64,000 nucleotides of DNA. It comes from a virus. The notes beneath the pieces were generated by a model. That model had not been told where the DNA came from. It made no database searches and saw only the letters and a program-made list of their open reading frames with translations. Positions 15,404 through 57,553 of the stretch are shown in pieces. The DNA lies in the IMG/VR virus record IMGVR_UViG_3300033049_000066, positions 1-64,000 of that record; one strand, 5' to 3'. The stretch's first letter is position 1; the number at the start of each line of letters is the position of its first letter. The position numbers were made by a program, and so were the translations under genes.

Positions 15404-16259
15404 GTTCATAATGGAAGGTCCGCTGGACAAACTAGACAATGCGATGCAAGGGCAGATTATCGGTCGACAACAGAAAAATCGAGCAAATGTTAAAAAGCGG
15501 AATCTGCCTGAAATCACGAAGGCAATTCACGAAGTCCTCGCCGCAAAAGTGAAGACATTGGTTGACACCGGCAACGCTGATGGCGCAATCGTACAGCAAC
15601 TAGTGACAAAAGTGTTAAATAAAATGCTAAAGATAGACGTTCAGTCAGCCGGTACATACCGCAGAGACTTATCGGCCCTAGTAGGTGCGGTATTAGAATC
15701 CCCACAGACCATCATTGATAATCCTGCTATATCAAAAATTATCAATACAATTGCAGACAAAGCAATTAGCACCCACGATCCAGAATATAAACTAATTGAT
15801 CCCGCATTGCGGAAAAAACTTGATGTCCTAACTAAGAATGAACAAAACAAAAAGAAACAATATAAGATTGTAATAACGCATTTAACTAAAAAAGAAAACA
15901 TGCAGGAAAAGCTTGCTCGTGACGCTGCTGAAGAATATTTTCAAGATGAAGTACACTACGATCCTAGTGATGATACCGAATCCGATGCAGACACTAATCT
16001 AACGCAATTTGTTGCAGATGTATTTTTCATTGAAGGCACGTACAATACAAAGAAAGAAGGTAAGCAAAAGGTTTATGTGAACCGGAAAGGAAAGTGGAGT
16101 CTATGGCGAATGGCTAAAAAGAATTTGTGGGAGTTTACGACTAGTGTCGCTGATGACACTGAGGATCAAGCAATAGAGACTTTAATACGACAATCAGAAT
16201 TAGCGCCAATTCCGATGACATTTACACGTAAAGACGACAATTACTACCAGGTAGACTAA
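15390..16259 (+). CDS. Putative packaged internal protein with capsid-targeting leader
   Basis: 289 aa. The N-terminus MRANEFIME|G resembles the leader of T4 internal proteins (MKTYQEFIAE|A), with an IxE|G site for the prohead protease gp21 at residues 7-10. Such leaders direct proteins into the prohead and are removed during maturation. The body is helical and rich in Lys and Asp, with no recognised enzyme motif. It overlaps the next gene by 1 nt (TAATG). Confidence 0.65.
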   Translation: MRANEFIMEGPLDKLDNAMQGQIIGRQQKNRANVKKRNLPEITKAIHEVLAAKVKTLVDTGNADGAIVQQLVTKVLNKMLKIDVQSAGTYRRDLSALVGAVLESPQTIIDNPAISKIINTIADKAISTHDPEYKLIDPALRKKLDVLTKNEQNKKKQYKIVITHLTKKENMQEKLARDAAEEYFQDEVHYDPSDDTESDADTNLTQFVADVFFIEGTYNTKKEGKQKVYVNRKGKWSLWRMAKKNLWEFTTSVADDTEDQAIETLIRQSELAPIPMTFTRKDDNYYQVD

Positions 16260-17578
16260 TGAAATTATTAAAAACGTATTACAGATTAATGGAAGGTGGC
16301 AACGTATTTAAAGATGCTGAGAAACAACCAGTCACCTCACGTATTAACAAGGAACATATAGCACCATCACTTGCGTTTGTTGAAAAAATACTTGGCATGA
16401 AACTTGACGGTTACCTCGGCACAACTGGCAAGAAAACAAGTTCCGGTGATATGGACATATCCGTGGACAGCAGCAAGTACAACAAAAAGACCGTAGCGAA
16501 CACGCTGAAGGCGTGGGCGAAGGGGCAAGGCTTAGTGCCAGGTGAGTGGGTGAAACTTAGCGGAGACAACGTACATTTTAAAACTCCCATCCGTGACGCC
16601 AGCGGTAAAGAAATCGGCGGTTATGCGCAGTTAGATTTGATGTTTGGTAACCCCCAATTTCAAGTATGGTCAATGCGCGGAGAGCCCGGCAACGAATTCA
16701 AGGGAATGTATCGTCACATCATCATGGCAAGTATAGCAGCAGCGAACGGCATGAAGTGGTCTTATAAAAATGGACTCGTGGACCGCAACACAAATAAAAT
16801 TATATCTCAAGATCCAAAAACAATTATTAGAAAACTGTTACCAGGTTACAGCGGCGATCCAATGTCCTTGTCGGTGAAAAGCATATTAGAATATGTTTAC
16901 AGCAAGTACAAAAACCAACCTAAAAAGATCGAAGCTTTAATTGGGCAAGCAGTGAGTACATTAGCCGAGCACTACGGTGTTCAACTACCGATGCCAGACC
17001 AAGAAACTGTTCATGAATCTAACGATCCAGACGAATATTTTCTTGCCAAGCTGCGGAATCGTATTGTTGATTTAGACATGGAGCCACTAATTGAAAAACG
17101 CGACCCATTCTATAAAGAATACGTAACAGAGGGCAAATTGAGAGATATGAATCATTTGGAAGATTTGATCTTAGATGAAGGACCATCCGGGCTATTTAAG
17201 GCCATTGGAATCCTACGTTCATTTGCGGAAGGATCAGCCCAAGAAAAAACTACAATAAAATGGGATGGGTGTATCGCTGGCGATTCAACATTAATAACCA
17301 GCAAAGGTGAACGTACAATAGCTGATATAATAAGCAATTGGCAAAAGGAAGAAATAAAAGTACTAGCCCACAATTTCGAAACTGGCCGAGACGAGTTTGT
17401 AGCTATAAACATGGCCGGGAAACAAATTGGTAAAAAAGATTGGGTTGAGGTCACTCTCGATAACGGCACGGTAATTAAAATGACTGAAGACCACGAAGTG
17501 TACACTACAAACCGCGGATGGGTAACCGCTGGCGAGCTAACCAAAAACGACGATATAAAAGAATCCACTATAAAATAA
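16259..17578 (+). CDS. N-terminal half of a split-intein virion protein (nucleotidyltransferase-like) plus N-intein
   Basis: 439 aa. Leader MKLLKTYYRLME|GG (LxE|G) suggests packaging in the capsid. Residues ~50-130 resemble a pol-beta-type nucleotidyltransferase: GTTGKKTSSGDMDISVD (Asp64, Asp66) and QLDLMF (Asp126). Residues 1-337 end in TTIKWDG, like motif I (KxDG) of ligases and capping enzymes. The next residue starts an N-intein (Cys338 to the stop), so the reading frame stops before the protein is complete; the rest is encoded at 18353. The two halves should be joined by trans-splicing to give a 653-aa protein. Host function is inferred only from motifs. Confidence 0.8.
   Translation: MKLLKTYYRLMEGGNVFKDAEKQPVTSRINKEHIAPSLAFVEKILGMKLDGYLGTTGKKTSSGDMDISVDSSKYNKKTVANTLKAWAKGQGLVPGEWVKLSGDNVHFKTPIRDASGKEIGGYAQLDLMFGNPQFQVWSMRGEPGNEFKGMYRHIIMASIAAANGMKWSYKNGLVDRNTNKIISQDPKTIIRKLLPGYSGDPMSLSVKSILEYVYSKYKNQPKKIEALIGQAVSTLAEHYGVQLPMPDQETVHESNDPDEYFLAKLRNRIVDLDMEPLIEKRDPFYKEYVTEGKLRDMNHLEDLILDEGPSGLFKAIGILRSFAEGSAQEKTTIKWDGCIAGDSTLITSKGERTIADIISNWQKEEIKVLAHNFETGRDEFVAINMAGKQIGKKDWVEVTLDNGTVIKMTEDHEVYTTNRGWVTAGELTKNDDIKESTIK
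17270..17575 (+). other. N-terminal half of a split intein (102 aa)
   Basis: Block A starts with Cys (CIAGDSTLITSKGERTIADI). Block B has the TxxH motif (MTEDHEVYTT) and ends with GWVTAGELTKND, the normal end of the first Hint half. The stop follows immediately where an endonuclease domain or the second half would be in a contiguous intein. Length matches known N-split inteins (88-125 aa). Confidence 0.88.
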
Positions 17579-17601
17579 GATGGTTACTGTCTCACTTCTT
17601 T

Positions 17602-17609
17602 GATAAATA
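17602..17609 (+). promoter_or_regulatory. Late-promoter box inside the split gene
   Basis: GATAAATA, 17 nt before the endonuclease start, followed by AAAGGAGAG as ribosome site. The inserted endonuclease thus has its own late promoter. Confidence 0.55.
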
Positions 17610-17625
17610 AAACAAAGGAGAGTAT

Positions 17626-18399
17626 ATGATATCATGTAGATGTGGAGTCGCGACTCCACCGGGCAAGTTTGGAGCACATGCAAAGGGTTGTCAGTCCTAT
17701 AAAGACGAAAGACAAAAACTAGAAAATATAGATAACGAATACATCGTTGGCTTATATAAGAGTACGTACTCAGTGTCTGAATGTTGTAATATCTTGCAGG
17801 ATAAGTTCCTATTAGGCCATGCTGTGATTCGAAAAATAGTAACTGCAATTCTTAAAGAGCGTAATGTGTTTGAAGGAATTACTGGCGAACACATGCAATC
17901 GGCTAAGCAAGCAAAAATGAAAAAAACAATGCTATTTCGGTATGGTGTTATCAATGCCGGTCAGATGGACGGGAACGGGTTTAAGCAGCAAAATAAAATA
18001 CCATACACTAGTCCGGTATTTTTTGAAAAATACAATAAGTTTAGAAAATTGGTTGATTATCAAACTAGGAAGACAGTATCGAAGTTAGCTAAGCCAGTGT
18101 ACTGCGAATATACCGGAGTAATGTTTGCAGATAACCAGCAACTGGACGTTAATCCAAACGACCCATGTAAGCGCACAGTAGATCATATTCAGTCAGTGTA
18201 CGAATGTTTCTTCAAAGGATGGACGGTAGAACAAACGTCAGGAATTGACAATTTAATATTCTGTTTACGACTGTGCAATACAATTAAGGGCAATAATGAA
18301 GTTAACCATTTCAGACTAAATATTGCTAATAACATCAGAGAAGGATTTATCAATGAAGGTTACAAGTATAAAGAAGATTTCAAAATTAGAACAACATGA
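17626..18399 (+). CDS. HNH homing endonuclease between the split-intein halves
   Basis: 257 aa. N-terminal Cys/His pair (CRCG ... HAKGC) suggests a small zinc module, then a helical region with a possible DNA-binding helix (EHMQSAKQAKMKKTMLFRYG). The C-terminal HNH domain has a Cys (CEYTGVMF), the catalytic DH (VDHIQSVYECFFKGW) and NLIFCLRLCNTIKGN. Encoded separately between the intein halves, it would make the split-intein locus mobile. Its last 47 nt overlap the second half of the gene. Confidence 0.85.
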   Translation: MISCRCGVATPPGKFGAHAKGCQSYKDERQKLENIDNEYIVGLYKSTYSVSECCNILQDKFLLGHAVIRKIVTAILKERNVFEGITGEHMQSAKQAKMKKTMLFRYGVINAGQMDGNGFKQQNKIPYTSPVFFEKYNKFRKLVDYQTRKTVSKLAKPVYCEYTGVMFADNQQLDVNPNDPCKRTVDHIQSVYECFFKGWTVEQTSGIDNLIFCLRLCNTIKGNNEVNHFRLNIANNIREGFINEGYKYKEDFKIRTT

Positions 18400-18463
18400 C
18401 ATTTCAACACCAACTGAAAATTTCTATGTTAAAACCGGTGAGGCAAACTGCTTAATTCACAAC
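18353..18463 (+). other. C-terminal half of the split intein (37 aa)
   Basis: MKVTSIKKISKLEQHDI... begins at its own start codon, contains the HDISTPTENFYV block F pattern and ends LIHN, with His-Asn followed by Ser as first extein residue. Length equals that of known fast C-split inteins (about 37-40 aa). Confidence 0.9.
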
Positions 18464-19414
18464 AGTCCCGCTATCGTTTTTGGTCGAGATGCCAACGGCG
18501 CGTTCGTACTTACTGATAAGTCCGGATTCGCAGCGAAAGGATATGACGGCAAGGCAACATCATCCAAGGACTTACAGAAAATGCTAGCAGGAAGAAACCC
18601 AGCAATGGACCAGTCCAGGCAGCAGTTTGTAACTAATATGGGCGATATATTTGACGAGTACCAGAAAGCTACGCCCAAGGACTTCAGGGGATTTTTAAGT
18701 GGTGACTTAATGTATTTTAACACGCCAGGACTAGAAGATCATACAGGATATGTATTCCAGCCGAACGTAGTACGATACGAAGTACACAAAGATTCTAAGC
18801 TAGGTAAACAAATAGGAAAAAGTAAAACAGGGATTACAATTCACAAGTACATTGGTGATCAGTTCAACACCACAGAGGAGGCAATTCGCCAACTTCGTGG
18901 CACGGATGTACTTGCTATATCGCCAGTCTACGTAACACAGGCATCAAAAATTAACACAAAGCCCATTGAGAAACTAGAGGCATTTGCTAAGGCGCATGCC
19001 GCAGAAATTAAGGAATTATTTAATCCAGCAGGTCTCAAAGGTATCGCAAACATACATCAACTGTTTTATAAGTACATAAACAACAGCGTTAAGATATCCG
19101 GCGGACTTGAGAACTTAGGCAAGGACTTCCCACAGTGGCTGAACTCAGAAAAATTAACTGATAACAAACGTGCGAACATAGCTGCGTACCTTACAGCTAA
19201 CAAGAAGGGCGTGAATGCGTTATGGACGTTGATTCGGGGCATAATGAAGATTAAAGACTGGCTAATTACAGAACTTGATTCTCACCCAGCAGATGTACAG
19301 CAGAGCATCGGTGGACAAAAAGGTGGAGAAGGATACGTTATTACCCATCCCGATGGACCTGTAAAATTGGTGCCACGGGGTAAATTTTCAGCAGCTAATT
19401 TTGCGGCACATTAA
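18353..19414 (+). CDS. C-intein plus C-terminal half of the split virion protein
   Basis: 353 aa from the ATG at 18353, chosen because GAAGG lies ~8 nt upstream and because the product then begins exactly at a normal C-intein. Residues 1-37 are the C-intein; from Ser38 the sequence is the rest of the host protein (SPAIVFGRDANGAFVLTDKSGF), which continues KWDG into the KWDGSPA pattern typical of KxDG nucleotidyltransferase domains. The remainder is helical with HQLFYKYINN and no recognised motif. Overlaps the endonuclease gene. Confidence 0.85.
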   Translation: MKVTSIKKISKLEQHDISTPTENFYVKTGEANCLIHNSPAIVFGRDANGAFVLTDKSGFAAKGYDGKATSSKDLQKMLAGRNPAMDQSRQQFVTNMGDIFDEYQKATPKDFRGFLSGDLMYFNTPGLEDHTGYVFQPNVVRYEVHKDSKLGKQIGKSKTGITIHKYIGDQFNTTEEAIRQLRGTDVLAISPVYVTQASKINTKPIEKLEAFAKAHAAEIKELFNPAGLKGIANIHQLFYKYINNSVKISGGLENLGKDFPQWLNSEKLTDNKRANIAAYLTANKKGVNALWTLIRGIMKIKDWLITELDSHPADVQQSIGGQKGGEGYVITHPDGPVKLVPRGKFSAANFAAH

Positions 19415-27598: not shown

Positions 27599-29062
27599 AT
27601 GTCTAAGATACTTGTGACGAAAAGGGATGGAACAGTTGAGCCACTCAATATTGAGAAATTGCACAAAGTAACGTTTTGGGCGACAGAGAACACCACAGGC
27701 ACATCAGCAAGTGAAGTAGAAATAAGAAGTCACATTCAGTTTTATAACAAAATAAAAACATCGGATATACAAGAAACACTAATTAAGTCAGCAGCTGATT
27801 TGATTAGCGAGGCAACGCCAAATTACCAACACGTAGCCGGGAGACTTATTGCGTATCATCTTCGCAAAAGTGTCTACGGATCATTCCAGCCCTGGCATAT
27901 TAAAAAGTTAGTCGATCAAAATATTAAATTAGGGCTCTACGACGATGAAGTAGGCACAAATTACAGCGACGCAGAGTGGGATATTATTAATAATTTTATC
28001 AAGCACGACCGCGACGAAGCACTCACTTATGCCGCAATGGAACAGATGCGAGGGAAGTATCTCGTACAGAACAGAGTAACAAAGCAAATTTACGAAACAC
28101 CGCAAATTGCCTACGCATTGATAGCGGTTACGTTGTTCGCATCGTACCCCAAAGAAGTTCGCTTACAATGGGCGAGAGAATACTACGACGCAATCAGTAC
28201 GCATCAGTTTAGCCTGCCAACGCCAATCATGGCAGGCGTACGCACAACCCAGCGACAGTTTAGCTCTTGTGTACTAATTGACACAGATGACAGCTTAGAT
28301 AGCATCAACGCCACAGCATCGTCAATCGTGAAGTACGTGAGCCAACGCGCCGGCATCGGCATCAACGTTGGTAAAGTCCGAGCTATAGGCAGTCCGATAC
28401 GAGGCGGTGACGCATATCACACAGGGATGATTCCTTTCCTTAAATATTTTGAGTCTGCTGTGAATAGTTGTAGTCAAGGGGGAATTCGTAAGGGATCCGC
28501 CACTGTATATTATCCACTATGGCACTACGAAGTAGCGGATATGCTAGTTCTTAAAAATAACAAAGGCATCGATGAAAATCGCGTTCGTAACATGGACTAT
28601 GCAGTGCAGTTCAATAAGTTGATGTACGAAAGATTAGTCAATGGCGGCAATATTACGTTGTTTAGCCCATCGGATGTTCCAGGGCTGTATGAATCATATT
28701 TCAATGACCAAGACAAATTTCGCGAATTGTACGAAGCTGCCGAGCGCAAGACTAGCATACGTAAAAAAGTTGTACCTGCCACCGATCTGTTCGGTGCTTT
28801 TATGCAGGAACGCAAGGACACCGGCCGCATCTACTTGATGAACGTGGACCATTGCAACACCCACAGCTCATTCAAAGAGGAGGTCGCTCCTGTGACAATG
28901 TCGAACCTGTGTTTAGAAATTACATTACCGACAACACCAATGAACGACATCCACGACGGCGCAACAAAACGTAAAATAAAAGTTAAGAAATCGGATATAG
29001 CAAAATATAAAAAATGGAGAGAAGAACATACAATATTATATAGACATTGGCTAACGAAATAA
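27599..29062 (+). CDS. nrdA: Ribonucleotide reductase class Ia large subunit, N-terminal piece (NrdA-a)
   Basis: 487 aa. With NrdB it reduces ribonucleoside diphosphates. The start covers the ATP-cone (MSKILVTKRDGTVEPLNIEK). Cys224 (E. coli C225), Asn436, Cys438 and Glu440 (E. coli N437, C439, E441) are in place. Homology to normal NrdA stops after DIHDG (454); the last 33 residues are an extra tail with 12 Lys/Arg and 3 Asp/Glu. The rest of the enzyme is encoded at 29843 after an endonuclease gene. Ribosome site AAGGAG. Arrangement resembles that of phage Aeh1 nrdA. Confidence 0.92.
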   Translation: MSKILVTKRDGTVEPLNIEKLHKVTFWATENTTGTSASEVEIRSHIQFYNKIKTSDIQETLIKSAADLISEATPNYQHVAGRLIAYHLRKSVYGSFQPWHIKKLVDQNIKLGLYDDEVGTNYSDAEWDIINNFIKHDRDEALTYAAMEQMRGKYLVQNRVTKQIYETPQIAYALIAVTLFASYPKEVRLQWAREYYDAISTHQFSLPTPIMAGVRTTQRQFSSCVLIDTDDSLDSINATASSIVKYVSQRAGIGINVGKVRAIGSPIRGGDAYHTGMIPFLKYFESAVNSCSQGGIRKGSATVYYPLWHYEVADMLVLKNNKGIDENRVRNMDYAVQFNKLMYERLVNGGNITLFSPSDVPGLYESYFNDQDKFRELYEAAERKTSIRKKVVPATDLFGAFMQERKDTGRIYLMNVDHCNTHSSFKEEVAPVTMSNLCLEITLPTTPMNDIHDGATKRKIKVKKSDIAKYKKWREEHTILYRHWLTK

Positions 29063-29094
29063 GTTAACGGCTGTACGTGTGCATAAGTAAACAC

Positions 29095-29850
29095 ATGAAG
29101 GAAGGATTCGTATATAAATGGAAACACATTAAAACAGGTATGATGTATATTGGCTGCCATTATGGTACGTTTGATGATGCGTATATAAGTTCGAGTAATT
29201 ATTTTAACGAGTATTATAATTCATCTCCGCTGATGTTCAAACGAGAAATTTTAGTTAGCGGCCTCAACAGACAAAGCGCGTTAGATGCAGAACGTAAGGA
29301 ATTATGCAGAGTTGACGCCGCCAACTCTGCAGAGTATTATAATTTACACAACTATTCCGGAAGAGGATGGGCACACCACGATAATCCAGAATTAGCAAAA
29401 ATTTACTATGCTCGTATTTCAAAAGCAAAAACAGGACAACCGTCAAAAAATAAAGGTAAGCATATTTGGGCAGATAAAAGGCACAAGCTTCGGATAGATA
29501 AATGGCAGGTTATTACACCATCAGGCGACGAAATTGAAATTGAAAATATGACGGTGTTTTGCAAAGAGCATAATTTGAATCCTTCTGCTATGAGTGCAGT
29601 GGCACGTGGAAACAAGCAGCATTATAAAAAATATAAATGTAAGAAATTAACAAATAATCGAAATGTTCATTATGAATTTAATGAATGGAAAAGTAACGGA
29701 AAACCAGGAAAAGCACACTACGGTGGCGATAATGGGTTTTCTAAAAAAGTAAAAATTTACAACAAGGTATATTATAGTATGAAAGAAGCAACAGTGGAAA
29801 CCGGACTATCTATGTATAAATTAAGAAAGTTAGGAGATTTTGATGTCTGA
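29095..29850 (+). CDS. GIY-YIG homing endonuclease between the nrdA pieces
   Basis: 251 aa from the ATG at 29095 (a GTG 6 codons earlier is possible; neither has a clear ribosome site). N-terminal GIY-YIG nuclease: GFVYKWKHIKTGMMYIG, then a conserved Glu/Arg segment. DNA-binding modules follow: ISKAKTGQPSKNKGK (NUMOD3-like), ITPSGDEIEIENMTVFCKEH with AVARGNK..YKKYKCKKL, and KIYNKVYYSMKEATVETGL (NUMOD1-like). It mobilises itself into nrdA alleles that lack it. Its end overlaps the NrdA-b start. Confidence 0.87.
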   Translation: MKEGFVYKWKHIKTGMMYIGCHYGTFDDAYISSSNYFNEYYNSSPLMFKREILVSGLNRQSALDAERKELCRVDAANSAEYYNLHNYSGRGWAHHDNPELAKIYYARISKAKTGQPSKNKGKHIWADKRHKLRIDKWQVITPSGDEIEIENMTVFCKEHNLNPSAMSAVARGNKQHYKKYKCKKLTNNRNVHYEFNEWKSNGKPGKAHYGGDNGFSKKVKIYNKVYYSMKEATVETGLSMYKLRKLGDFDV

Positions 29851-30835
29851 ACAATTTTTTGAATTAGTTGAAGATAATGAAGAGATAGATGATGCGTATG
29901 ATTACTTTGATGAATTAGTAGAGGATGAGGATCCAGCGTCAATTGCATTATGCACCTTGAGTGCAATAAATTGGGGAGCTTTCAAAAAGCCAGAAGACAT
30001 GGAGAAGGCGTGTACACTAGCGATACGCGGCCTCGACGCATTGCTAAGCTATCAGAATTATCCTGTGCTAGCAGCAAAGCTCGGCACCGAGAAGCGTCGG
30101 CCCCTCGGTGTCGGCATCATTAACTTCGCGTACTTCTTAGCTAAGCATGATGTGAAATACAGCGATGACAGCGCGTTAGAGTTGGTTGATACATGGGCGC
30201 AACACTGGTCTTATTATTTAATTAAAGCTAGTGCAGATCTAGCGAAAGATTTCGGTTCGTGTCCGGGCAACAGCGAAACCAAGTACAGCGAGGGCATATT
30301 GCCGATTGACACGTACAAGAAAGATGTTGATGAACTTGTCAAGCACAAAGAGGTCATGGACTGGCGAGGCCTGCGTAAACAATTAAAAGAAACCGGAATT
30401 AGGAATAGTACAGTTATGGCACTAATGCCTGCTGAAACTTCCGCACAAATTGCAAACGCAACAAATGGAATTGAGCCACCGCGTAGCTATGTTTCAATCA
30501 AGCAGAGTAAAGATGGCGTACTAACACAAGTGGTTCCTGAGTACAGACGACTTAAAAACAAGTATGAATTACTTTGGAGTCAGAAATCACCAGCCGGATA
30601 TATTAAATTAATGGCCGTATTACAGAAGTATATCGACCAGACAATTAGTGCTAACACATCGTATAATCCACAACACTATGAAGATGAACAGATACCAATG
30701 AGCGTGTTGCTAGGCGATATGTTGCTGGCCTACCGTCTTGGAATAAAGACGCTCTATTATTTACAAACTTATGACGGTCAAGGCGAAGTCGACATAACAG
30801 ATCTGGATTCAGAGTGTGATAGTTGTTCTATATAA
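29843..30835 (+). CDS. nrdA: Ribonucleotide reductase class Ia large subunit, C-terminal piece (NrdA-b)
   Basis: 330 aa from ATG at 29843, chosen for the TAGGAG 6 nt upstream. Residues 1-32 are an extra tail with 15 Asp/Glu and no Lys/Arg. NrdA homology resumes at SIALCTLSA (Cys37, E. coli C462). The radical-transfer Tyr pair (TLYYLQTYDG) and the C-terminal redox Cys pair (CDSC) are intact. Together with NrdA-a all catalytic residues are present, so a working enzyme would require the two pieces to associate. Confidence 0.92.
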   Translation: MSEQFFELVEDNEEIDDAYDYFDELVEDEDPASIALCTLSAINWGAFKKPEDMEKACTLAIRGLDALLSYQNYPVLAAKLGTEKRRPLGVGIINFAYFLAKHDVKYSDDSALELVDTWAQHWSYYLIKASADLAKDFGSCPGNSETKYSEGILPIDTYKKDVDELVKHKEVMDWRGLRKQLKETGIRNSTVMALMPAETSAQIANATNGIEPPRSYVSIKQSKDGVLTQVVPEYRRLKNKYELLWSQKSPAGYIKLMAVLQKYIDQTISANTSYNPQHYEDEQIPMSVLLGDMLLAYRLGIKTLYYLQTYDGQGEVDITDLDSECDSCSI

Positions 30836-40248: not shown

Positions 40249-40554
40249 ATGTCAATAAGCACAGCAGTTATAATCAAACCGAGAATGGATCTTAAAGAGC
40301 CACCAATGTTTAAGGTAGTGTACGTAAATGACAATAAGACGAGCGTTCAATTCGTAGTTGAAAGTTTAGTAGATCATTTTAGCTATGAATCAGAAACTGC
40401 TGAAAGAATTGCGCAGGATGTTCACGCAGATGGCGCAGCAGTAGCAGCAGTGTTACCGTATGAAATAGCTGAACAGAAAGGTATCGAGGTCACACTTGCT
40501 GCTCGTAAGCAAGGCTTCCCATTACAAATTCGAATCGAAAAAGAAACTAGCTAG
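40249..40554 (+). CDS. clpS: ClpS, N-degron adaptor for Clp protease
   Basis: 101 aa from ATG at 40249, which has AAGGA upstream; an ATG 10 codons earlier lies in the hairpin region. The ClpS core is clear: FKVVYVNDNKTSVQFVVESLV, VHADGAAVAAVLPYEIAE, FPLQIRIEKE. Asn-Asp at the VND turn and the substrate-pocket His (VHADG) are kept. In bacteria ClpS delivers N-degron proteins to ClpAP; here the phage AAA+ partner is ClpX, so the pairing is open to question. Its stop meets the convergent gene. Confidence 0.9.
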   Translation: MSISTAVIIKPRMDLKEPPMFKVVYVNDNKTSVQFVVESLVDHFSYESETAERIAQDVHADGAAVAAVLPYEIAEQKGIEVTLAARKQGFPLQIRIEKETS

Positions 40555-41351
40555 GGTTTGATTATCTTAGGATAATAGTTATCTGGGTCTTTAATGCAAC
40601 CTGGATTATTTACAAATCTTACGCCGTCAACTTCTAGGTCGATTTCCCCATTGTATCTACCAAAAATCCACGTTTTTACTTTTGTTTGATCGTCATTTAG
40701 CAAGCAAGACAAGATGCCGCTATTACCAGCGGTATCGCCTAATATAGTTGAGTTATATGCTTCGTCATGATTTATTAAATCCGGGCTAGGTACCGAGCTA
40801 GTTACGACAATAATATTTTTTACTTCGTCTAACTTTTGGCAATCTTCTATACTATTGTGCATATAATGTTGATCGGAAACTGCTAACTTAAAAATCTTGC
40901 TAGCCATATTATAGGACATCTGCCCCTTATCGTTAAGAAAGTCTAGTGTATTGCTTGTAGTATCACCGTCAGTAAAATCAAAGGTAGTCCAGCCGTTAGT
41001 AGAAAGTAACGTAACATCCGGTAGTACTATAATTTTTTCGTGTAAGAAAAACACTGATTCCATCGCCTCAATATTCTCCCTTAGCGAGGCATAACTACAA
41101 TCAAAATCGCCATTCTGTGCGTCGTGCTCGAGGTACCCGTCTATGAAAAACACGCCTTCGTAGTACTGAGACACACCCTCTAAGAAATTAAACAGAACTT
41201 CGTGGTCACTGGAAATATTGCCTGCGACGATACAGAATAAACTTGTTGCCTTCCCTTCCCAAGAAAAATCATCTAAATTAGTTAAAAATAGATCACTTAT
41301 TAAATCAAAATTAAAAATCATTATATTGTTATGTGCATTTCTGCTGAACAT
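40551..41351 (-). CDS. Metallophosphoesterase-like protein with degenerate metal site
   Basis: 266 aa on the minus strand. The fold pattern of calcineurin-like phosphoesterases is clear, but most metal ligands are changed: ISDLF (usual DLH), VAGNIS (usual AGD), IDGYLEH (usual GNHE), VVTSSVPSP (usual THHAPSP) and IFGRYNGEIDLEVDGVRFVNNPG (usual HGHTH...NPRGY). Hydrophobic and Gly/Pro/Asn positions are kept, so it is a folded protein that probably lost catalysis rather than a pseudogene; there is no stop or frameshift. It may now bind a nucleotide or protein. Late box upstream at 41366. Confidence 0.75.
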   Translation of the reverse strand: MFSRNAHNNIMIFNFDLISDLFLTNLDDFSWEGKATSLFCIVAGNISSDHEVLFNFLEGVSQYYEGVFFIDGYLEHDAQNGDFDCSYASLRENIEAMESVFFLHEKIIVLPDVTLLSTNGWTTFDFTDGDTTSNTLDFLNDKGQMSYNMASKIFKLAVSDQHYMHNSIEDCQKLDEVKNIIVVTSSVPSPDLINHDEAYNSTILGDTAGNSGILSCLLNDDQTKVKTWIFGRYNGEIDLEVDGVRFVNNPGCIKDPDNYYPKIIKP

Positions 41352-52034: not shown

Positions 52035-52589
52035 ATGGAAGTAAGATGGATCATTAGTGAGGCAATTACTAGTGAACAAATTAGCCCAGAGATAATTAAC
52101 AATACAGGACCATCCTGGGGTAGTTGGGTTACTTGGCACAAGTACAAGACAAATAATTGCATTTGTTCTGATTTGGAGAGTGCGAGTAGATTAGTAGAAC
52201 AATCGTTTCAGAATACAGTTAATTTATATATTTCAAAAGATAGTTTTCAAAATAGCAAAAATCCCCAAGGCGTGCATGTATTCGACGGTCATTTTGTAAA
52301 CAGTTCAATTAGTAACAAAGACGATATCGTTGCGTTAAACATTGCTGTGCCAGCAGCGGATATTGTGTTGCTGCTAGGTTTTAATTTTAGTCCTTTACTC
52401 AACACAGATGACGAAGCCCTGCGCGAGTCACGCGCTGAATATTATTTTAATGTGCGCACAATTATTGTTGAGAATCCCGAGACACAATTTGTTTTAGTTG
52501 AATATGAATATGAATTAGCGAGCTGGGTAATCGAGTTGAGCAATGTTACTCAAGACACTGCCGCAAATGTAAAGAGTTTATTAGCTTAA
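52035..52589 (+). CDS. Conserved hypothetical protein
   Basis: 184 aa. SWGSWVTWHKYKTNNCICSDLESASRLV recurs in T4-like aquatic phages after fibre genes. No enzyme motif. Its last 44 nt overlap the convergent EAL gene, which is unusual for two genes that are both intact. Confidence 0.72.
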   Translation: MEVRWIISEAITSEQISPEIINNTGPSWGSWVTWHKYKTNNCICSDLESASRLVEQSFQNTVNLYISKDSFQNSKNPQGVHVFDGHFVNSSISNKDDIVALNIAVPAADIVLLLGFNFSPLLNTDDEALRESRAEYYFNVRTIIVENPETQFVLVEYEYELASWVIELSNVTQDTAANVKSLLA

Positions 52590-53340
52590 TTGTACTTTCT
52601 AGTTCTTCTACAGTTTCTGCCATTGAAAAGAAATATCCCTGAAAACAAGTAAATCCGATTTTGCGTAATATTTCGTATTGGCATTGATTTTCTACACCTT
52701 CTACAATTGTGAATTTATCTAGTGCTTGCGTTAGTTGATACATAGCAGTGACAAGGGCAACATCTTGCTGCGTTTTCGTGATATCATCAACGAACATTTT
52801 ATCTATTTTAATTTCAGTTACTGGTAGAAATTTTAATCTGCCAAATGAGCTGTATCCGGTGCCAAAATCATCAATTGAGATATTAAAGCCTTCAGCAGCT
52901 AGATGATATATCTTAGCGATATCTGCATCGTCAATCATTGAAGATTCCGTGAGCTCAAGTGTTATTTGCTTGGGGTGAATTTCTGCTTCTGTTATAATTT
53001 GATGGACGGTATTGCAGAAATTAGCATCCCGTAATTCTTCACCAGCAACATTAACCGACGCTGTAAACGTATTAGTTACTAATCCTTCATCTACCCATTT
53101 TCTCAATTGGTGCGCAACTTTCTTTAAAATCCAATAACCGAGCTCATTTATTTGGGAAGTTTTAATTGCTACATCAATAAATGATTCAATATGGCATATA
53201 TTCGTGTCGGGTTTTATTAGTGCTTCTACCCCAGTAATTTCAAAATAGTCTCCTATTAGACAATACTGTGGCTGATAGTGTATATTAAGAGAATTATTCT
53301 TTAAAGATTCAGCAATATATTGTGCAATTTCGTCATTCAT
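52546..53340 (-). CDS. EAL-domain c-di-GMP phosphodiesterase
   Basis: 264 aa, almost only an EAL domain, without sensor, GGDEF or membrane parts. Key residues are in place: EAL (Glu39), Asn97 (SVNVAG), ELTES (Glu129/132), DDFGTGYSS (Asp158, Asp159), IKID (Lys179), VEGVE (Glu215) and Gln235. The substrate-phosphate Arg of EALxR is Lys and the usual EALxRW spacing is shorter. It probably hydrolyses c-di-GMP to pGpG. It has two minus-strand late boxes. Confidence 0.9.
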   Translation of the reverse strand: MNDEIAQYIAESLKNNSLNIHYQPQYCLIGDYFEITGVEALIKPDTNICHIESFIDVAIKTSQINELGYWILKKVAHQLRKWVDEGLVTNTFTASVNVAGEELRDANFCNTVHQIITEAEIHPKQITLELTESSMIDDADIAKIYHLAAEGFNISIDDFGTGYSSFGRLKFLPVTEIKIDKMFVDDITKTQQDVALVTAMYQLTQALDKFTIVEGVENQCQYEILRKIGFTCFQGYFFSMAETVEELESTIKLINSLHLRQCLE

Positions 53341-53345
53341 ATTAG

Positions 53346-53374
53346 TATTTATCCGGATATCATCGCTATTTATC
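53346..53374 (-). promoter_or_regulatory. Two minus-strand late-promoter boxes before the EAL gene
   Basis: GATAAATA on the minus strand at 53346-53353 and again at 53367-53374, as the direct repeat CGGATAAATA. Confidence 0.6.
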
Positions 53375-53427
53375 CGAAATATGCTAAGTCATTGATTAAT
53401 TCATTTGCAAATAACCGCAATTAGAGG

Positions 53428-53456
53428 TTGACCTTTGGCGCTATATGTCATATAAT
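53428..53456 (+). promoter_or_regulatory. Early-type promoter, five-copy family
   Basis: TTGACC, 17 nt, TATAAT (53451-53456), then TATAACAGTTAGATAAC. A single copy of TAAGTCATTGATTAAT lies 28 nt upstream. Confidence 0.88.
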
Positions 53457-53495
53457 GTATATAACAGTTAGATAACGAGCAAAGGATTAAAGAAC

Positions 53496-53642
53496 ATGAT
53501 ACACGAAATTCTCGAAGCAAAAGCAGCAGAAAAAGCGTTTGTAAATGCTCAAATAGCTGATGAACAGAAGTTGATGCTGGACATTGCTAAGGTAATGACG
53601 CCAATATTATTCGTGTTAATTTTTGCGATTTCGTTGATATAG
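53496..53642 (+). CDS. 48-aa tail-anchored membrane protein, early
   Basis: MIHEILEAKAAEKAFVNAQIA..., a polar helix then a hydrophobic C-terminus (TPILFVLIFAISLI). AAAGGATTAAAG precedes the ATG, and a strong promoter lies upstream. Function unknown; size and early expression fit a host-takeover or exclusion peptide. Confidence 0.75.
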   Translation: MIHEILEAKAAEKAFVNAQIADEQKLMLDIAKVMTPILFVLIFAISLI

Positions 53643-53645
53643 AGG

Positions 53646-53674
53646 TTGACCTTTGGCGCTACTTGTTATATAAT
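53646..53674 (+). promoter_or_regulatory. Early-type promoter, five-copy family
   Basis: TTGACC, 17 nt, TATAAT (53669-53674), then AACAGTTAGATAAAG. Starts 4 nt after the preceding stop. Confidence 0.88.
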
Positions 53675-53706
53675 GTATGTAACAGTTAGATAAAGAGGAA
53701 AGGATT

Positions 53707-54057
53707 ATGTCATACGTAATATATAACAAAGAAACAACAAAAACGTTGTTAGCACGAGCACCACATGTCGGTTGCTACGTGGAATCTTATTTAACAAACA
53801 GCGCGGCAAAAGCAGCTCTTACACGCTTAGATAAGAAAGGCAAATTAGGTGTTTATCAAAAAGAAATCGACACTGATGTGACTGTTGCAGTCGCACATGT
53901 TAAAGAAGATTTTGCGATCGCGGAAATTACCAAATTCCGCACTAGTATTGAGAAAATGGTAACACGCAGAAATGCGATGACCGGGCAGGAATTTCAAGAA
54001 TCAATTAACGCCCGGTTTTCATCTTCGCCATCTTCAGAAAACTACTGGTCTACATAA
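53707..54057 (+). CDS. Conserved small phage protein
   Basis: 116 aa. MSYVIYNKETTKTLLARAPH ... YLTNSAAKAALTRLDKKGK resembles a small early protein family of T4-like phages. Basic, soluble; function unknown. Under its own strong promoter. Confidence 0.72.
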   Translation: MSYVIYNKETTKTLLARAPHVGCYVESYLTNSAAKAALTRLDKKGKLGVYQKEIDTDVTVAVAHVKEDFAIAEITKFRTSIEKMVTRRNAMTGQEFQESINARFSSSPSSENYWST

Positions 54058-57091: not shown

Positions 57092-57553
57092 ATGGCAGAT
57101 AAAGTAAAATACGCAGGACTTGACAAAGCAATTGCAATCGCGTCGACAGCATTTGTTGGAGTTTTTGACAAAGGTGGTGTTCCGTATATTATGCATTGTT
57201 TGCACGTGATGCGCGGTGTTGAAGACTTAGGCACAGAAGCAATGATTGCCGCAGTATTGCATGATTTACTTGAAGATTGTAAAGAGTGGTCCGCGGAATT
57301 GCTAGTCGACGAGGGGTTCGACCCTCGTACTGTTAGTCTTGTTACACTTGTAACACATCTCAAAGGTGAAAGCTACAATGCCTACATAACCCGTCTATCA
57401 ATTTCGCATATAGCACGAGCAATTAAGATGGCTGACTTACGTCACAACAGCGATATTCACAGAATGAAAGGACTTACCGAGAAAGATCACGCTCGCCAAG
57501 CAAAGTACCACAAAGCGTATGCGTTTCTTAAGGAAATTGCAAGTAATGAATGA
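57092..57553 (+). CDS. HD-domain hydrolase resembling small alarmone (ppGpp) hydrolases
   Basis: 153 aa. Metal and catalytic residues match the SpoT/MESH1 hydrolase pattern: PYIMH (His35), HDLLED (His57, Asp58, Glu61, Asp62) and KMADLRHN (Asp115, Asn119). No synthetase domain. MESH1-type enzymes remove the 3' pyrophosphate of (p)ppGpp. The Arg that starts the family's first motif is not obvious, so another nucleotide substrate is possible. Early promoter upstream; overlaps the next gene by 8 nt. Confidence 0.8.
   Translation: MADKVKYAGLDKAIAIASTAFVGVFDKGGVPYIMHCLHVMRGVEDLGTEAMIAAVLHDLLEDCKEWSAELLVDEGFDPRTVSLVTLVTHLKGESYNAYITRLSISHIARAIKMADLRHNSDIHRMKGLTEKDHARQAKYHKAYAFLKEIASNE

Follow-up and report, generated by a model that had tools for sequence, protein, structure and literature searches.

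A stand-alone EAL-domain gene and a candidate c-di-GMP make-and-break pair in a T4-like jumbo phage

Bacteria choose between motile and attached life through c-di-GMP, which also controls surface sugars that can act as phage receptors. Why a large phage would carry an enzyme predicted to destroy this molecule is the question raised by a lone minus-strand gene in the contig IMGVR_UViG_3300033049_000066 (here G000). The window analysed is the first 64 kb of this 293,278-bp viral contig, which encodes a T4-type capsid protein (Gp23) and a terminase, and whose UvsX is 60-65% identical to those of jumbo phages of the CBB, GAP32, Munch and Atu_ph07 type; the contig is a 293-kb T4-like jumbo phage. 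A first-pass annotation had described the gene as resembling acquired cargo, with a product that would lower c-di-GMP or remove a defence signal. The reading put forward here, which on balance we consider probable from sequence comparison, is that the gene provides one half of a late phage-borne make-and-break pair, an EAL protein and a diguanylate cyclase, that would override host c-di-GMP. The gene and its surroundings comprise the following features (window coordinates).

52546 to 53340, minus strand: predicted stand-alone EAL-domain c-di-GMP phosphodiesterase, 264 aa (Pfam, alignments, AlphaFold/Foldseek)
53346 to 53352, minus strand: late-type box (ATAAATA) at -12, separated from the ATG by five bases (motif search; kept in orthologues)
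53367 to 53373, minus strand: second ATAAATA box at -33 (motif search; absent from orthologues)
52546 to 52589: convergent 3′ overlap of 44 bp between the EAL gene and gene 52035-52589
52035 to 52589, plus strand: syntenic neighbour of the EAL gene, no assigned function
53707 to 54057, plus strand: syntenic neighbour on the other side of the EAL gene, no assigned function
53428 to 53456, plus strand: early-type promoter of sigma-70-like sequence (TTGACC-N17-TATAAT, 11 of 12 positions match), pointing away from the EAL gene
57092 to 57553, plus strand: SpoT/RelA-like phosphohydrolase of the HD (HD_4) type, also conserved close to the EAL locus of relatives

The EAL gene is oriented opposite to its neighbours, as had been annotated. 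A second copy of the TTGACC-N17-TATAAT promoter (positions 53646-53674, again 11 of 12) also points away from it, and these two sites are the best matches around the locus, where the number of sigma-70-like sites is not above chance. The two promoters lie in near-duplicate intergenic segments (approximately 53420-53490 and 53640-53710). The HD protein encoded at 57092-57553 is possibly a hydrolase of the alarmone (p)ppGpp.

The open reading frame starts with ATG, and its product is one EAL domain alone, with neither a sensor nor a GGDEF part. It matches PF00563 at E=3e-54 over residues 9-240 of 264, with a score of 184 bits (cut-off 31.3) and coverage of positions 4-235 of the 236 in the profile, in agreement with the stand-alone domain first proposed for this strand. 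A contig-wide domain search found it to be the sole EAL in G000. When the protein is aligned with 13 other EALs, ten positions (E39, N97, E129, E132, D157, D158, K178, E214, E217 and Q234) are invariant among the 14 members. The key residues listed in the first-pass annotation are therefore present, with its numbering one too high from Asp158 onward; mutation of such residues in relatives had been named there as evidence against activity, and all ten catalytic positions are kept in the four phage lineages that carry the gene. An AlphaFold model built from the four-member phage alignment has a pLDDT of 86, with a weak stretch in loop 6 where residues 162-164 fall below 50. Foldseek places this model on enzymes solved with c-di-GMP, among them 3n3t (TM 0.88), 5m1t and 4rni. 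Its stand-alone EAL domain, in which the active site is intact, makes it a likely c-di-GMP phosphodiesterase.

Bacterial EAL proteins such as DosP, MucR, MorA, TBD1265 (3n3t) and RocR share the fold and the full catalytic set at 31-38% identity, but the phage protein differs from them in lacking sensor and GGDEF parts, in missing the Trp after EAL-x-[RK], where it is also shorter by three residues, in belonging to a separate phage clade and in having a late phage promoter. The three-residue deletion and the Trp loss are common to members of the clade, which is also without the Glu of AExxG; the motif that is typically EALxRW reads EALIK in G000, where Lys replaces the substrate-side Arg at position 43, and EALLR or EALVR in the relatives. 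Here, the Arg and Trp are typical substrate-side residues rather than catalytic ones and were not counted as defining the catalytically competent class. These departures count against full competence and would suit an EAL that has no activity and serves as a receptor or sponge for c-di-GMP, a reading that is nevertheless very improbable, given that all residues whose loss is known from degenerate EAL receptors, as well as the loop 6 sequence DDFGTGYSS (dimerisation/metal), are kept in all four phage lineages.

Orthologues were identified by scanning IMG/VR with an aligned-family profile. They are found in three other phage lineages, represented by five contigs, at 67% (L039, L043), 61% (L040, L041) and 54-56% identity (L042, 344-kb contig), after which the identities drop to about 38% and below. 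Scans with single proteins (the EAL protein and the products of genes 52035 and 58581) gave only the near-identical contig L002 or no match, and a nucleotide search of the phage collection gave none. L002 departs from G000 at EAL residue 246 into unrelated low-complexity coding sequence and then ends (L002:8740-8842), as an assembly chimera or a variant junction; because this break lies inside the EAL gene, L002 supports only the right side of the locus. In each of the five contigs (L039-L043) the EAL gene is flanked by counterparts of its two G000 neighbours (53-56% and 56-69% identity), in the orientation seen in G000 and with a convergent overlap, which measures 32 bp at the same place in the orthologues. 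The family of gene 52035-52589 extends to 27 jumbo-phage contigs of IMG/VR (loci L199-L225), 22 of them without the EAL gene, and has no match in the INPHARED collection.

The four distinct phage EAL sequences group as one clade (support 100/100) among proteobacterial EALs, with a stem 1.35 substitutions per site long. The domain comes from bacteria; the gene phylogeny that had been suggested as a way of naming the donor yields this clade but resolves no donor; recent transfer from a named donor was accordingly rejected. Bacterial relatives reach about 38% identity, the best among the matches listed. In the two pairs with usable dS, dN/dS is 0.10 and 0.20 (other pairs are saturated), similar to the values of the neighbouring genes, which points to purifying selection on the EAL gene across the four lineages. 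The gene has a GC content of 0.346, near the 1st percentile for G000 (mean 0.418); this bias is weaker in the relatives, where the EAL gene has 0.37-0.40 and the locus 0.39-0.40. The description as acquired cargo thus retains the bacterial origin of the domain, the low GC and an autonomous promoter layout, but not recency: being conserved, syntenic and under apparent purifying selection across four lineages, the EAL appears to be an old phage gene rather than a recent passenger.

The EALs of G034, L047, L048 and L086, likewise from large phages, fall outside the G000 clade, which implies that EAL genes entered large phages more than once. The contigs L047 (250 kb), L048 (170 kb), L086 and L248-L250 (224 kb) are large phage contigs encoding membrane or PAS/Cache GGDEF-EAL proteins, with four GGDEF matches in the 224-kb contig. 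The EAL matches examined in the phage collection came from host contigs, prophages or short fragments; none was used as evidence for EALs of lytic phages. Citrobacter phage Chris1 also has an EAL in a phage record; its protein, however, is a PAS/GGDEF-EAL encoded beside an integrase in a temperate phage and is 29% identical to the G000 EAL. A fold search of BFVD returned no EAL-like viral model and at most weak TIM-barrel GDPD matches.

The two late boxes that had been noted upstream of the EAL gene both exist. The box at -12/-13 is retained in every orthologue, and the one at -33 in G000 is missing from them. Across the window ATAAATA is not enriched (30 occurrences against 26 expected), so that late boxes as a window-wide enrichment were rejected; what is enriched is their position relative to genes. 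Upstream of genes the box stands on the sense strand of 44 of 333 ORFs and on the opposite strand of six. At a spacing of exactly five bases from the start codon it occurs 20 times in the contig, against a mean expectation of 0.85 from 20 permuted heptamers (ATG or GTG starts, ORFs of at least 60 aa). Neighbouring spacings have zero to two cases each, the exception being the six-base spacing with five, and spacings of 21-26 bases form a second, broad peak. Both the EAL gene (ATAAATACTAATATG) and the cyclase gene introduced below (ATAAATACCGTTATG) are among these 20. Another lone minus-strand gene of the window, at 40551-41351, has a late box at -21 and encodes a metallophosphoesterase-like protein (phrog_1649, 9e-10).

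Late promoters of T4 (TATAAATA) depend on gp55, gp33 and gp45, and RNA starts about six bases after the late box. In the G000 arrangement, the five-base spacing puts the start codon at that position, and the 20 genes are therefore predicted to give leaderless late mRNAs that begin at the ATG. The same is implied by the scarcity of Shine-Dalgarno-like sequences, found in two of the 20 genes (18 lack one) as opposed to 131 of 278 other ORFs, although the box itself fills part of the space concerned. T4 and G000 share the core ATAAATA box and the late logic; G000 differs in this box-N5-ATG arrangement, predicted to be leaderless, in at least 20 genes, and we know of no general use of such a start in T4. 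Homing endonucleases of T4 have late promoters of their own. In G000 the genes with this layout include those of a secreted protein (149919) and of a PAAR-like protein (32547) as well as GIY-YIG endonuclease-like ORFs; because the last share it, the layout may mark self-contained accessory genes.

The last point bears on whether the EAL gene is an autonomous accessory gene (a 'moron'), kept for reasons of host population or gene mobility and playing no part in the cycle of the phage itself. Such a gene could well share its leaderless late layout with endonuclease-like ORFs, be as poor in GC as this one and be missing from the 22 relatives that have only the neighbour; its long conservation at one site, the signs of purifying selection and its pairing with a cyclase make this account improbable.

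The cyclase lies outside the window, in the same contig. At 156893-157876 on the plus strand (L007:12893-13876), inside a tRNA cluster, G000 encodes a 327-aa PAS-GGDEF protein (GGDEF at 4e-41; PAS by TIGR00229 at 53 bits) in which the motif RKTDVVARYGGDEF has both the RxxD inhibitory site and GGDEF intact, as would be expected of a working diguanylate cyclase. The earlier proposal that the phage lowers c-di-GMP or removes a defence signal is therefore incomplete, as the same genome encodes a cyclase with the same promoter layout. In the 344-kb relative G009 the cyclase has a syntenic orthologue (53% identity) preceded by a box at -12, and a second GGDEF is also present; box-N5-ATG precedes both the EAL and the cyclase gene in G000 and G009 alike. 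A third jumbo phage, G034 (249.8 kb, Gp23 capsid), has a stand-alone EAL, outside the G000 clade, and adjacent to it a PAS-GGDEF, the two forming an operon that follows a late-type box; it also has a 663-aa GGDEF-EAL; it is the only one in which the two genes share an operon.

In the size class from about 250 kb upwards, EAL and GGDEF are both present in three contigs and both absent from eight. GGDEF thus occurs in 3/3 EAL-bearing and 0/8 EAL-lacking large contigs (Fisher p=0.006, for contigs that are not phylogenetically independent), in a sample of few, related metagenomic contigs, partly chosen by EAL and none with a completeness estimate. This is suggestive, though not conclusive, of a non-random co-occurrence in large phages. 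Within G000 the two genes are about 104 kb apart, which counts against a module, and opposing enzymes made together could be futile unless gated. A PilZ receptor was found in none of seven phages.

Just downstream of the cyclase, at approximately 157897-158122 on the plus strand (L007:13897-14122), is a permuted (two-piece) tmRNA (RF04321; 81.7 bits against an Rfam gathering threshold of 47) with the apparent tag ANDSFYTEELMAA. Two secreted paralogues are encoded nearby, at 158310-159128 (plus strand) and from 149919 down to about 149062 (minus strand); they are 33% identical, have signal-like N-termini, and one matches Polysacc_lyase PF14099 (2.5e-7), so that both are possible matrix-degrading enzymes. 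A polysaccharide lyase as a general companion of the EAL was dropped, PF14099 being found in G000 only.

These genes allow another proposal, in which the phosphodiesterase alone lowers c-di-GMP, switching motility on and matrix off, and the cyclase serves another time or place. The absence of a sensor, the distance of about 104 kb from the cyclase and the two polysaccharide-lyase-like secreted proteins, which fit matrix removal, agree with it. The identical promoter class of the two genes, their co-occurrence, the EAL/GGDEF operon of G034 and the restriction of the lyase to G000 do not, and we find it distinctly unlikely. The cyclase also weakens the idea of counter-defence, in which the EAL protein would destroy the c-di-GMP alarm of a host CBASS/TIR-STING-type system and block abortive death. 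Here, an intact GGDEF enzyme from the same phage would feed such an alarm, and late-type expression of the EAL gene would come late for counter-defence; nor does the EAL match anything in PADLOC, a library of defence rather than counter-defence genes. That bacterial STING responds to 3'3'-c-di-GMP, in the portions of the reports available (PMC8748872, PMC9402430), that jumbo phages are proposed to carry several families of signal-degrading phosphodiesterases, in the available part of PMC7824862, and that an alarmone-type HD protein is encoded near the EAL gene all speak for counter-defence, which we nonetheless judge unlikely.

According to the make-and-break reading, the EAL and cyclase genes would both be transcribed late from T4-type late promoters, with the first mRNA base at the ATG. 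The sensor-less phosphodiesterase would hydrolyse the host's c-di-GMP pool, and the PAS-gated cyclase, product-inhibited through its intact inhibitory site, would resynthesise c-di-GMP under phage control, such that the c-di-GMP of the cell would be removed from the host network and its level set by the phage. The likely outputs, around release, would be c-di-GMP-controlled surface polysaccharides or glycans, adhesion and motility, and the benefits at that time may concern adsorption of progeny to debris or kin, and exit from the biofilm. In E. coli a c-di-GMP-dependent surface glycan is the receptor of phage N4, and expression of a single phosphodiesterase removes it (PMC8669472). The wider claim, that some lytic T4-like jumbo phages possess a complete, co-regulated c-di-GMP turnover circuit with leaderless late mRNAs and a level set independently of the host, might as readily prove wrong as right.

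Phage-borne diguanylate cyclase domains have precedents in a Cariaco Mu-like virus (PMC7785012), Bacillus phage G (gp350) and Pseudomonas phages (Y1). As far as the available portions of these sources go, they are single cyclases for which a matching phosphodiesterase is not reported, in contrast to the EAL and cyclase of G000. The jumbo-phage HD-GYP, DHH and other phosphodiesterases proposed as counter-nucleotide enzymes resemble the G000 EAL as predicted degraders of cyclic dinucleotides but have different folds, and in the part of that paper available none is paired with a cyclase; its section on these families does not name EAL, a term that appears there solely in the reference list (PMC7824862). 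Open-access text yielded no paper on a stand-alone phage EAL or a phage cyclase-phosphodiesterase pair. If the reading is right, a virus that makes and breaks c-di-GMP would control a central bacterial decision, going beyond the erasure of an alarm, and as both predicted enzymes are small soluble proteins, the predictions are testable. The putative leaderless late class of the G000 genome stands beside the pair as a second finding.

Two further genes of the window appear interrupted. In the protein encoded at 16259-19414 two intein-like halves (CIAGDSTLI... and ...CLIHNS) break the sequence, and an endonuclease-like ORF of its own lies between them (17626-18399); this looks like a gene fractured by a split intein. 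The large subunit of ribonucleotide reductase, at 27599-30835, is apparently split by a GIY-YIG-like endonuclease ORF (29077-29850).
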